Made by a program: the position numbers and the translations under genes
The notes under the pieces: generated by a model
What the model was told of the DNA's origin: nothing
The model's database searches: none
Seen by the model: only the letters and a program-made list of their open reading frames with translations
Origin: Pseudomonas sp. 2FG
Lineage (GTDB): Bacteria > Pseudomonadota > Gammaproteobacteria > Pseudomonadales > Pseudomonadaceae
DNA: 64,000 bases
Direction of reading: 5' to 3'
Assembly: GCF_005502935.1 (NCBI RefSeq)
Contig: NZ_SCMP01000006.1
Span: 1-64,000, forward strand
Shown: piece after piece, positions 7,918 through 26,824 of the stretch
Layout: each line of letters begins with the position of its first letter
Position numbering within the stretch: position 1 is the first letter of the stretch

Positions 7918-8234
7918 CGATGATGACTGAGACATTAGTGAGTGGAACTGCACCCGTGACCGATAACGTCAATCTGAAACAGCACCTGAACACGCCGAGC
8001 GCAGAGGGCCAGACCCTGCGCGGCAATGTGGAAAAGGCGCTGCACAACTACTTTGCCCACCTGGATGGGCAGGATGTCTCTGACGTCTACAACCTGGTGC
8101 TCTCCGAAGTCGAGGCACCGCTGCTGGAGACCGTGATGAATTACGTCAAGGGTAACCAGACCAAGGCCTCCGAACTGCTCGGACTGAACCGCGGCACGCT
8201 GCGCAAGAAGCTCAAGCAATACGACTTGCTGTAA
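7914..8234 (+). CDS. fis: DNA-binding protein Fis
   Basis: Nucleoid-associated homodimer that bends DNA and adjusts rRNA, recombination and global transcription with growth rate. 106 aa. The C-terminal helix-turn-helix [20 protein letters not shown] and the preceding dimerisation helices ([15 protein letters not shown]) are unmistakable. The ATG at 7914 overlaps the dusB stop and gives an N-terminus ([12 protein letters not shown]) like that of other pseudomonads. A strong terminator follows. Confidence 0.97.
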
Positions 8235-23521: not shown

Positions 23522-24436
23522 ATGCTGCGCTTCGCCCGCTTCCTGCTCGCTCCACTGCTACTGATAGTTGCCGCGCTCGGCGTACTGGCTCTGACCAGTA
23601 CGCCTACCAGCACCCCGGCGGTGCTCGCGACCCTGGGTGACGAGCCGCTGGTGATCGCCCATCGCGGCGGCCGCGGGCTGTGGCCGGAAAACAGCCTGTT
23701 CGCCTTTGAGCGGGCCAACGCGTTGGGCGTCGACATGCTGGAAATGGACCTTCGGCGCAGCCGTGATGGCGAGTTGGTGGTGATCCACGACGCCAAGGTC
23801 AACCGCACCACCAATGGTTCGGGCCAGGTCGCCGAGCTCGACCTGGCCGAGCTGCAAGCGCTGGACGCCGGCTACCGCTGGAGCGCCGACGGCGGCGAAA
23901 GCCACCCGTACCGCGATCAGGGCATCCGCATCCCGACCTTCGCCGAGGTGCTCGCGCGCTTCCCGCAGAAGGCCAAAGTAGTCGAGATCAAGGTGCCGGA
24001 TATCGGCATGGAAGCGCAGTTGTGCCAGTTGCTCGAAGCCAGCGGCCAGCGTGATCGGGTGCTAGTCGGCAGCTTTTACGAGCGCAGCCTGCAACAGTTT
24101 CGCGAAGTCTGCCCGGGCGTGGCCACCTCCGCCGGGCCGACCTCGGTGCGCCTGCTCGTCGCGTTGAATTGGGTCGGTCTCGGCACGCTGCTGTCGCCGT
24201 CTTACCAGGCCCTGCAGATCCCTTTACGCAGTGGCAGCCTGGAAGTCGCCAGCAACAGCCTGCTCGACACCGCACAGGCGCGCGGCCTCAATGTGCAGCT
24301 GTGGACCATCAACGAGCAGCCGGCGATGCGCCACCTGCTCGACATGGGCGCCCAAGGCCTGATCACCGATTACCCGGATCGCGCCCTGCAACTGCTCGGG
24401 CGCTCGACCCAAGTCAGCGCGCTGAGCGCTCAATAG
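23522..24436 (+). CDS. Glycerophosphodiester phosphodiesterase family protein
   Basis: Hydrolyses glycerophosphodiesters to an alcohol and glycerol 3-phosphate. 304 aa from the ATG at 23522, beginning with one hydrophobic segment (FLLAPLLLIVAALGVLAL) that should anchor or export it. The GDPD core shows IAHRGGRGLWPENSLFAF, the metal pair LEMDLRRSRDGELVVIHDAKVNRTT (E, D, H), VVEIK, and the C-terminal VQLWTINE and LITDYPD. Its end overlaps the convergent dehydrogenase gene by 23 nt. Confidence 0.88.
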   Translation: MLRFARFLLAPLLLIVAALGVLALTSTPTSTPAVLATLGDEPLVIAHRGGRGLWPENSLFAFERANALGVDMLEMDLRRSRDGELVVIHDAKVNRTTNGSGQVAELDLAELQALDAGYRWSADGGESHPYRDQGIRIPTFAEVLARFPQKAKVVEIKVPDIGMEAQLCQLLEASGQRDRVLVGSFYERSLQQFREVCPGVATSAGPTSVRLLVALNWVGLGTLLSPSYQALQIPLRSGSLEVASNSLLDTAQARGLNVQLWTINEQPAMRHLLDMGAQGLITDYPDRALQLLGRSTQVSALSAQ

Positions 24437-25178
24437 CGAAGCCCGCCCACGACTGGCTCACCGGCATCAACTCCAGGCTGTTGATGTTGATGTGGGCCGG
24501 TTGGTTGAGCACCCAGAAAATTGTCTCGGCAATGTCTTCCGATTGAATCGCCTCGGCGCCCGCGTAGGTCGCATCGTACCTAGCCTGATCACCGCCGAAA
24601 CGCACCAAGGAAAACTCGCTCTCGCACAGCCCCGGCTCGATATTGGTCACCCGCACGCCGGTGCCTTGCAGATCGCAGCGCAGGCTCAGCGAGAACTGCC
24701 GCACGAACGCCTTGGTCGCGCCATATACATGGCTGCCCGGATAGGGATAACTGCCGGCGATCGAGCCCAGGTTGAGGATGCTCGCGCCACGCCCATGGGC
24801 GATCAGCCGCGGTAGCAGCAGGCGGGTGCTGTACATCAGGCCCTTGATGTTGGTGTCGACCATGGTGTCCCAGTCATTCAGATCGCACTGCGGCGCCGGG
24901 TCCGTACCCAGCGCCAGCCCGGCGTTATTGATCAGCCCGCGCAGCTTGGCGAACTTCGCCGGCAAGGTGGCGATCGCCGCCTCCATCGCATGCCGGTCCC
25001 GCACATCGAGTTCCAGCGGGTACACATCGGTGAGTGCCGACAACTCATCACAGAGCGCCTGCAGGCGGCTCGCGCGGCGGCCACTGAGCACCAGCGACCA
25101 GCCGGCCTGGGCAAAGCGCCGAGCACAGGCTTCGCCGAAGCCGGACGTGGCGCCGGTAATAAACAGGGTCGAAGTCAT
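24414..25178 (-). CDS. ydfG: Short-chain dehydrogenase, YdfG-type
   Basis: NADP-dependent 3-hydroxy acid dehydrogenase family (serine, 3-hydroxyisobutyrate and related substrates; also malonic semialdehyde reductase activity in E. coli YdfG). 254 aa. Rossmann motif TGATSGFGEACARRF, NNAGLALG, catalytic Ser in LNLGSIAGSYPY, and YGATK with catalytic Tyr/Lys. The C-terminal half closely follows the E. coli YdfG pattern (RVTNIEPGLCESEFS). AAGGAGAA lies before the start. Confidence 0.9.
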   Translation of the reverse strand: MTSTLFITGATSGFGEACARRFAQAGWSLVLSGRRASRLQALCDELSALTDVYPLELDVRDRHAMEAAIATLPAKFAKLRGLINNAGLALGTDPAPQCDLNDWDTMVDTNIKGLMYSTRLLLPRLIAHGRGASILNLGSIAGSYPYPGSHVYGATKAFVRQFSLSLRCDLQGTGVRVTNIEPGLCESEFSLVRFGGDQARYDATYAGAEAIQSEDIAETIFWVLNQPAHININSLELMPVSQSWAGFAIERSAR

Positions 25179-25885
25179 AGCGTTCTCCTTGAGCGACTAC
25201 TCGCCGCGAAACCCAGCCATCAACATGGCCAGGCACAACGCAGCCCTTGGGTAGCGCGCAACAGCGTCGGGCTGCGCGCTCAATCAGCCATAGGGTACGC
25301 CATCGTTTTCAGCTTGGCGCGGCGGCACGCAAGCTGATCCACTCCCGCCAGCGAACATATGGTCAAAAAACGTACAGTTTTGCCGAAGCCACGCCAGGCG
25401 AGGTTCAAGCCCAGCTTTACCCACCTTATCCACAGTTCGCTCCACAGGCTCCTGGGATAACTTTTCCACAGCGGCCTCAGGCTTGCGCTAAATCCTTGAA
25501 AAAGCAGCTTTATCCCTTGACTCCGAAGTGACAGACGTGCCGCCCATGGCAATTCAAGGCGCCTGATCAAATCCTAATCAATCGGCGCAAAGCCTTACCG
25601 GCTATGGGCTCGAGACATTGCTCCCGCACTTACCCACAGGCCTACCCACAGTAGTTGGGGGCAACTCTGCAAAGTGCATCAAACGACAGTGGATAAAGTG
25701 GATAAACCGCTGTTTTAACTCTAAAAACCCTATTGATCAAAAAATCACCAAAGCCCGCAAGAGCGCTACCGCTATGGCTGCCTGATAGCTCTACCCACCT
25801 TATCCACAGAACGCCCCACAGCTTTTGGGGACAACTTTGTGCTTTTACGCAAGCATGGGCGATGCGGCGATGGACAATCTTGCTC
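25179..25885. other. Long intergenic region with clustered DnaA-box-like sites
   Basis: 707 nt without a credible gene. DnaA-box matches on the plus strand: TTATCCACA at 25426-25434 and 25800-25808, and TTTTCCACA at 25462-25470. On the minus strand: TTATCCACT at 25688-25696 and 25697-25705. Looser copies: TTACCCACA (25630) and CTACCCACA (25642). Three of the clusters (about 25420, 25630 and 25795) belong to a degenerate repeat of about 45 bp, in which a box is followed by a second CCACAG and then a G-rich GGGG.CAACT-like stretch. Stretches of lower GC lie between. It is not the usual oriC, as no dnaA, rpmH or gidA is near. Confidence 0.7.
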
Positions 25886-26824
25886 TCACAGCACCGGCGG
25901 CTGCTCGAGCAAGGCCCGGGCGGCGATCAGGTCTTCCAGGGCATAGCCCACCGACTTGAACAGGGTGATCTCCTCTGCGTTGTCGCGCTGCCCACGGCCG
26001 TGCAGCAGGTCGCTCAGCTCGAGATGGATGTCCGCCTCGGTAATCGCGCCCTCGCCGAGTGCAAACAGCAGGTCACCCGCCTCCTCCAGCGCACCTGCGC
26101 GGGTGTCCACGACAATCCGTGCGCGGGCGACCGCGGCCGAATCGGTCTCACGCATGCTCGGCAGAAAGGCCCCGACCAAATCCAGGTGCGTACCCGGCTT
26201 GAGCCAGGCGCCCAGCACCAGCGGGGTGCGAGAGTTGGTCACACAGGTGATGCTGTCGGCCTGCTCGACACTGCGTTGCAGGTCGGCTGCGGCGCTGACC
26301 GGATAACCTTCGCCAGCCAGCTGTTCGACCAGCGCCGCGACTTTTTCCGCACTGCGCCCCCAGATCTGCACCTGCTGGTAAGCGCGCACCGAGCAGTGCG
26401 CCCGCACCATATGCGCCGCCAGGGTGCCGCTGCCGACGATCAGCAAGCGCTGCGCATCGCGGCGCACCAGGTAGTCCGCGGCCAGTGCGGAGGTGCAGGC
26501 GGTGCGCCGTGCGGTCAGCTCCGAGGCTTCCAGCAGGGCCAGGGGCTGGCCGCTGACGTCGTCGAACAGGGCGAAGACCGCCGCTACCGAAGGCAGGCCG
26601 CGCGCGCCGTTGTGCGGAAACACCGTGACCAGTTTCACACCGATGCCCTGGCCGCTTTGCCAGACCGGCATGTGCAGCAAACTGGCCTCGTCAGGCAACG
26701 CCTGGCAGCCACGCACGGGCGCCTCGCAAGGCTCGGCCAGGCCTTTTCGCAAGGCTTCGATCAGTGCGGGATAAGCCAACGCCGCAGCGACGTCGGCATT
26801 GGTGAAAAAACGCAGGCTTTGCAT
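25886..26824 (-). CDS. Ornithine cyclodeaminase / mu-crystallin family protein
   Basis: 312-aa NAD(P)-dependent enzyme. The family includes ornithine and lysine cyclodeaminases, alanine dehydrogenase and ketimine (delta1-piperideine-2-carboxylate) reductases. Seen: GVKLVTVFPHN (substrate-binding Lys), ARRTACTSALAADYL, the nucleotide-binding LLIVGSGTLAAHMVRAH, ITCVTNSRTPLV, and HLDLVGAFLPSMRE (the D-x-x-G-A-F motif). AAGGAG precedes the ATG. It is next to a Liv transporter and 6 kb from amaAB, which makes a role around pipecolate or lysine plausible; this is inference. Confidence 0.85.
   Translation of the reverse strand: MQSLRFFTNADVAAALAYPALIEALRKGLAEPCEAPVRGCQALPDEASLLHMPVWQSGQGIGVKLVTVFPHNGARGLPSVAAVFALFDDVSGQPLALLEASELTARRTACTSALAADYLVRRDAQRLLIVGSGTLAAHMVRAHCSVRAYQQVQIWGRSAEKVAALVEQLAGEGYPVSAAADLQRSVEQADSITCVTNSRTPLVLGAWLKPGTHLDLVGAFLPSMRETDSAAVARARIVVDTRAGALEEAGDLLFALGEGAITEADIHLELSDLLHGRGQRDNAEEITLFKSVGYALEDLIAARALLEQPPVL

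Follow-up and report, generated by a model that had tools for sequence, protein, structure and literature searches.

A candidate DARS-like array of tandem DnaA-box modules with Fis-like sites at conserved loci near oriC in Pseudomonas

Introduction

An interval free of likely genes in Pseudomonas sp. 2FG carries three tandem copies of a module in which three DnaA boxes are arranged as in DARS1 and DARS2, the DnaA-reactivating sequences of Escherichia coli, and are followed at a fixed distance by a Fis-like site. Judged by its sequence and by those of its relatives, this interval is, on balance, probably a Fis-gated DARS-like locus, whose three modules would serve the recharging of ADP-DnaA. 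We favour this reading because of the box geometry, the fixed distance of the Fis-like site and the persistence of the module beside different neighbours. An earlier, sequence-only reading of the window (the whole stretch of DNA analysed, 64,000 nucleotides long) had noticed a cluster of DnaA boxes here and had proposed a reactivating locus, a titrating locus, a secondary origin or a DnaA-controlled regulatory region; of these the first is now best supported and the second comes next, while the other two are disfavoured.

The source for DARS-like sequences across many proteobacteria is reportedly a 2009 study by Fujimitsu. Such sequences are conserved in many proteobacterial species (PMC10380432); the DARS2 core has been tied to gamma-proteobacteria related to E. 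coli (PMC4245941), and seven E. coli-proximal species have been compared (PMC8682772). No Pseudomonas is among the species described in the accessible portions of these sources, and the Pseudomonas loci differ from the DARS-homologous sequences of other proteobacteria in neighbours and layout. The accessible portions of the open-licence literature yielded no report of DARS or datA in Pseudomonas; what appears to be new here is the DARS geometry in a new layout and in this genus, DARS itself being already known.

Results

Three tandem modules in a gene-free interval

The sequence-only reading had called the interval gene-free, and positions 25179–25885 indeed hold no likely genes, with one gene at each border (Table 1). 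Every box that it had listed was found, namely TTATCCACA at 25426 and 25800, TTTTCCACA at 25462 and TTACCCACA at 25630 on the plus strand, and TTATCCACT at 25688 and 25697 on the minus strand. The degenerate 45-bp repeat that it had described exists too, but its extent was underestimated, since it is part of a larger module of three DnaA boxes and a Fis-like site, within an element at 25361–25834 where three direct copies of about 100 bp lie on the minus strand. In each, box I (+) is followed after 5 bp by box II (−) and after a further 3 bp by box III (−), and a Fis-like 15-mer starts 50 bp after box III. Boxes I and II differ in the window from TTATCCACA by 2–4 bases (6–7 of 9 positions match in box I, 5–7 of 9 in box II), their positions being conserved, and box III is the best box of these modules. 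A half-palindrome, AGGCC ... GGC, is conserved between box III and the Fis-like site, at core positions +54 to +58 and +70 to +74. Any TTATCCACT box at the spot of the head-to-tail pair is found in only 3 of 30 stretches of this locus, our own included.

Table 1. Features of the interval and its borders, in window coordinates
Feature	Position	Strand	Details
Short-chain dehydrogenase gene	24414..25178	-	Left flank, outside the element; Pfam PF00106
Interval free of likely genes	25179-25885		Between short-chain dehydrogenase and ornithine-cyclodeaminase genes
Module 1, Fis-like 15-mer	25361..25375	-	GTACGTTTTTTGACC; 1 mismatch to GNNYAWWWWWTRNNC, offset 50
Module 1, core	25426..25460	-	Box I TTATCCCAG, 5 bp, box II (CGCTCCACA inverted), 3 bp, box III (TTATCCACA inverted); read as TTATCCCAG GAGCC TGTGGAGCG AAC TGTGGATAA; 0 mismatches to composite
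Extra box	25462..25470	+	TTTTCCACA; adjoins module 1, outside the modules
Module 2, Fis-like 15-mer	25565..25579	-	GATTAGGATTTGATC; 2 mismatches, offset 50
Module 2, core	25630..25664	-	TTGCCCCCA, 5 bp, CTACCCACA inverted, 3 bp, TTACCCACA inverted; read as TTGCCCCCA ACTAC TGTGGGTAG GCC TGTGGGTAA; 0 mismatches to composite
Two boxes, head-to-tail	25688..25705	-	TTATCCACT; between modules 2 and 3
Module 3, Fis-like 15-mer	25735..25749	-	GGTGATTTTTTGATC; 1 mismatch, offset 50
Module 3, core	25800..25834	-	TTGTCCCCA, 5 bp, CGCCCCACA inverted, 3 bp, TTATCCACA inverted; read as TTGTCCCCA AAAGC TGTGGGGCG TTC TGTGGATAA; 0 mismatches to composite
Ornithine cyclodeaminase/mu-crystallin gene	25886..26824	-	Right flank, outside the element, then liv-type transport genes; Pfam PF02423

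DnaA boxes with at most one mismatch number 17 in the 64-kb window, against a shuffle mean of 4.5, and that figure was reached in none of 100 shuffles; across the genome there are 526 such boxes (281 for a backward control) and 35 exact ones (9 for the control). Six boxes with at most one mismatch within 385 bp have a Poisson expectation of about 2e-7 genome-wide, by a rough and post hoc estimate. Exact boxes with a neighbour closer than 600 bp occur at five places among the 35: three boxes directly upstream of dnaA, two pairs 28–31 kb from dnaA on the same contig, a pair on contig C32, and the cluster in the window. Chance clustering is ruled out by conservation and by the backward, spacing and shuffle controls. 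A mobile element was set aside on account of the synteny of the locus, and a non-coding RNA was rejected since Rfam gave no match at E≤1 in 24900–26100.

The box geometry of DARS1 and DARS2

The three-box core, its 5-bp and 3-bp spacers and its box orientations are all equal in the window and in E. coli. A geometry scan of MG1655 picked TTATCCACT ATTCC TGTGGATAA CCA TGTGTATTA between bioD and uvrB as the DARS1 core and TTATTCACC TTTTC TGTGGATAG AGT TGTGAAGAA upstream of mutH as the DARS2 core, with one further match in each of these two E. coli stretches; the DARS2 core read in this way comes directly after the primer printed for DARS2 in PMC4585315. Reviews, in their accessible text, ascribe the same box spacing to DARS1 and DARS2, their box I pointing the other way from boxes II and III, and regard the head-to-head boxes I and II as characteristic of DARS and essential for it. 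Scanning for I(+)N5 II(−)N3 III(−) returned the three modules as the sole matches in the 64-kb window and no match in the E. coli datA stretch. A pattern-free scan of 316 combinations of offset and orientation around 98 exact boxes of loci A and B (defined below) ranked −12 in the same orientation first (mean 4.86 of 9) and −26 in the opposite orientation second (4.47 of 9), followed by 3.59 for the third, with an overall mean of 2.21 and a standard deviation of 0.53. These top two offsets are exactly those of DARS; leaving the pattern out of the scan served to keep it from being fitted to itself.

Other features set the Pseudomonas modules apart from E. coli DARS. Box II is the best box there, whereas box III is strongest in the window. 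The Fis-like site of the modules is in line with the Fis dependence of DARS2 (PMC4245941), but it is a single site at a fixed +50, not matched to the FBS2-3 distance of E. coli; DARS2 also requires IHF, while the Pseudomonas modules have no IHF-like site at a fixed place, nor is DARS1 described with one in the accessible sources. Finally, Pseudomonas has 1–7 cores per locus and usually several loci, closer to oriC than DARS1 or DARS2. Some cores are of a second type whose box II is perfect (CTGTGGATAACTCTGTG...), which brings them nearer to E. coli DARS; besides the window's own genome, this type occurs in genomes G028, G085, G099, G238 and G252; in G028 it is the sole match, with two mismatches.

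A Fis-like site at a fixed distance

We scored 15-mers against GNNYAWWWWWTRNNC, which we take to be the Fis consensus. The best match to this assumed consensus lies at +49 to +51 with at most two mismatches in 167 of 173 modules, which are related by descent, were chosen by their pattern and are thus not independent; such a site is missing in the other 6. Matches with at most one mismatch number 144 of the 173, against about 8.5 in shuffled flanks. For this set 86 sequences were given, 81 yielding modules, 24 from the 119 named stretches described below; duplicates and cores near locus ends were removed. All six cores of the window's own genome have a Fis-like site at +50 with 1–2 mismatches. 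Among 30 of the 35 exact boxes of that genome, both boxes that belong to a core have such a site at +50 (two mismatches each), and the remaining 28 have none with at most two mismatches at +49 to +51. IHF-like matches with at most one mismatch were seen in 39 of the 173 modules, against about 9 in shuffles, scattered and with no fixed offset.

Distribution of the module

As a composite we used the 35-bp pattern TTRYCC-N7-CTGTKG-N6-CTGTGGRTAA, allowing at most two mismatches unless stated otherwise. It occurs in 41 of 57 relatives, comprising all 36 of the same genus (our own included) and 5 of 21 others. A family draw found it in 134 of 158 Pseudomonadaceae, including 20 of 21 same-genus genomes, two of them shared with the 36-genome sample; the 24 family genomes without it include 10 of the 13 of genus group g27, and the same-genus exception is G231. 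It is present in all 18 further single-contig genomes of the genus and, at one mismatch, in 50 of 369 genomes of a class draw. The backward composite had no match in any of these draws, and a composite with its spacing off by one (one spacer base missing) had none in the 57 genomes.

At least 119 named stretches matched, among them P. putida 31800, P. fluorescens, P. fragi, P. citronellolis, P. panipatensis, P. nitroreducens, P. peli, P. borbori and Stutzerimonas. Four loci recur; their assignment rests on neighbours for some genomes and on position together with core sequence for the rest. At locus A as many as four modules stand in tandem, in several genomes in a gbcA-like/etfB-like interval and in some beside other neighbours; locus B is that of the window; locus C has single or few copies beside a histone-deacetylase-domain gene and an HI0933-like gene, and locus D single or few copies beside a UPF0029 gene and a TetR gene. 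By neighbours of at least 60% identity, the 119 matches listed divide into 32 at B, 25 at A, 20 at C, 4 at D, one near a DnaA gene (Nocardiopsis) and 37 at none of these, the last including P. peli (L177), L160 and non-pseudomonads such as Polaromonas, Competibacteraceae and Methylobacter. Stretches L047, L048, L051, L054, L055, L056, L058, L123 and L124 belong to locus A. Composites with a perfect or near-perfect box II are also seen in other gamma-proteobacteria (for example genomes G361, G525, G515 and G556, and stretches L144, L181, L193 and L200).

The six cores of the window's genome comprise three in the window (no mismatches) and one each on contigs C12 (none), C1 (one) and C32 (two). 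The C12 core is locus D by its neighbours. The single C1 core (G000:C1:164068-164102), with a Fis-like site at +50, is unassigned to loci A–D and lies beside what by eye is an elongation factor G-like gene, and the C32 core (G000:C32:255105-255139, L111) is of the second type, beside a LonB-like gene and likewise with a Fis-like site at +50.

Conservation at locus B

Searching with the whole interval at nucleotide level gave, outside the own genome, only matches of 38–207 bp in 12 of 56 genomes, for which reason the dehydrogenase protein was used as an anchor together with the composite pattern. The dehydrogenase has a match of at least 79% identity in 100 of 119 genomes of the genus (own included). 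At least one exact DnaA box precedes its gene at all 30 loci examined, our own among them, and two exact boxes stand 200–225 bp apart at 27 of the 30, the exceptions being the own genome, L063 and L066. Alignment of the locus displays two modules as direct repeats and, in one group, an exact box between them; box I is missing in that group, except in the window's type. The ornithine cyclodeaminase gene on the other side is likewise next to the cluster in both P. panipatensis (L176) and P. nitroreducens (L206). No dehydrogenase stands between the triple array and the ortholog of the window's glycerophosphodiesterase in P. peli (L177) and L160, where these two are direct neighbours.

Position relative to oriC

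Chromosomal position was tabulated for relatives, the window's own genome being a draft; the table holds 26 single-contig genomes of the genus, namely 8 of 13 dnaA-located genomes (without G010, G012, G014, G020 and G029) and 18 of 21 others (without G101, G120 and G133). Counted from dnaA, the first 35% of the oriC-ter arm holds 195 of 208 cores and 60 of 61 multi-core loci in these genomes, mostly at 12–32% and usually on both sides of oriC. The common layout places A at −0.51 to −0.65 Mb, C at −0.83 to −0.99 Mb, B at +0.62 to +0.71 Mb and D at +0.75 to +0.86 Mb, and is mirrored and nearer to oriC in G015, G124, G130 and G086. The sequence-only reading had considered that equal clusters might turn up at many loci; they do recur, at a few loci per genome and with all four at their usual places in 16 of the 26 (by position and core sequence), but they are not scattered genome-wide. 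Exceptions include G018, in which loci A, B and D share an arm, as well as a single core at 47% and five more single cores beyond 50%. Outside the table, G014 has an array near 0.9 Mb of its 3.75-Mb genome, about 48% of the arm, and the dehydrogenase match of G029 is about 2.25 Mb from dnaA.

Two further observations concern individual sites. Seven cores of alternating types stand within about 1.1 kb at 45% of the arm in G062 (C1 1113595-1114713), an apparent tandem expansion. A recurrent single composite match, TTGTCCACGAAAACCGTGGGTATCTCTGTGGATAA, lies near the terminus, at 84–94% of the arm, in G032, G017 and G119, is identical in G004, G190, G207, G215, G264, G278 and G287, and differs by one base in G223; this match may be coding sequence or a distant site of the DARS1 kind.

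Partner proteins

The DnaA of this genome shares 321 of 467 residues with E. coli DnaA; D269, L290, R281, R285 and R334 are all retained, and of these sensor 1 D269 and AID-2 L290 are used at DARS (PMC5742627). Hda (TIGR03420) and Fis (NF001659) are both present above the curated cut-offs, the fis gene lying in the window itself at 7941–8228 (+), about 17 kb from the cluster.

Discussion

In the DARS-like reading, ADP-DnaA would assemble on the modules, head-to-head on boxes I and II, and DnaA at box III would steady this complex, while Fis, bound 50 bp away, would bend the DNA and gate it. ADP would then leave and apo-DnaA would reload with ATP, so that more ATP-DnaA is at hand before initiation. 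Several loci near oriC may thus share the task that DARS1 and DARS2 perform in E. coli. The weakness of boxes I and II might restrict the response to high levels of DnaA or to the presence of Fis, or it might mean that DnaA is held by box III alone, in the manner of a titrator. The occurrence of the composite outside the Pseudomonadaceae counts against the DARS-like reading.

A DnaA-titrating or datA-like role is the more serious alternative, although we think it rather unlikely: early-replicated clusters would sequester DnaA, or stimulate ATP hydrolysis, soon after initiation, and re-initiation would thereby be blocked. The window shares with E. coli datA a non-coding cluster of DnaA boxes near oriC, and strong boxes gather in Pseudomonas on the oriC-proximal part of the arms, often on both sides. 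Relative distances to oriC in E. coli are 0.10 for datA, 0.21 for DARS2 and 0.33 for DARS1 (PMC5010248); on the same whole-chromosome scale the Pseudomonas loci are mostly at 0.06–0.16, nearer to the datA value, and position therefore favours titration and argues against DARS. The DnaA-box clusters of Bacillus subtilis also lie near oriC and titrate DnaA (PMC5010248), and the density of DnaA boxes near oriC in E. coli has been taken to favour titration (PMC12371093); the weakness of boxes I and II fits as well. However, the essential boxes of datA run in a single direction, with an IHF site (PMC5742627, PMC4585315), whereas the modules have a rigid head-to-head arrangement of boxes I and II that the datA stretch lacks and no IHF-like site at a fixed position, and pure titration leaves the Fis-like site at exactly +50 unexplained.

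That the array instead regulates the adjacent genes in response to DnaA and Fis seems improbable. It lies upstream of the short-chain dehydrogenase gene, and DnaA is also a transcription factor (PMC8203912), but unrelated genes stand beside the module at loci A–D, another gene adjoins it at locus B when the dehydrogenase is missing, and no sigma-70 promoter-like site, the one type sought, was found in 24900–26100. Because the array stays while its neighbours differ, a regulatory role is disfavoured.

A narrower alternative, to which we give little credence, keeps the rest of the DARS-like reading and has the +50 site bound by a protein other than Fis, such as IHF or one of the H-NS family. The site often ends in TTTTTTGATC, and the IHF consensus given in PMC8682772 contains TTGATW; IHF-like matches are also commoner than in shuffles, but their scatter over offsets speaks against such a binder. 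A secondary or cryptic origin is very improbable: the interval has several DnaA boxes and is richer in A+T than the window (54% against 63% GC), but no module was found with up to four mismatches at 15 Pseudomonas dnaA loci (in G010, G015 and G018 the sequence begins at most 25 bases from dnaA and in G014 only 648 bases precede it, so that these four offer little or no upstream sequence), and the sequence-only reading's doubt about a chromosomal origin, given that no dnaA is nearby, is borne out by a dnaA with three exact upstream boxes on contig C22, the window being on C34.

The DARS-like reading extends to a broader proposal, which we hold tentatively and as somewhat short of probable: distributed Fis-gated DARS modules of identical geometry, usually at four small loci and at near-constant distances on both arms beside oriC, would time replication in Pseudomonas, unlike the one or two dispersed DARS of E. 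coli. For the recharging of DnaA after Hda-type inactivation in pseudomonads we found no description in the accessible open-licence literature; the analysis supplies a 100-bp module of defined build, a pattern to search with and four loci that are conserved and separately deletable in P. putida. Should the loci titrate DnaA, another reason for the head-to-head geometry would have to be found. If they are active in recharging, they would represent another placement of DnaA recharging sites, with numerous copies close to oriC that Fis would couple to growth phase.
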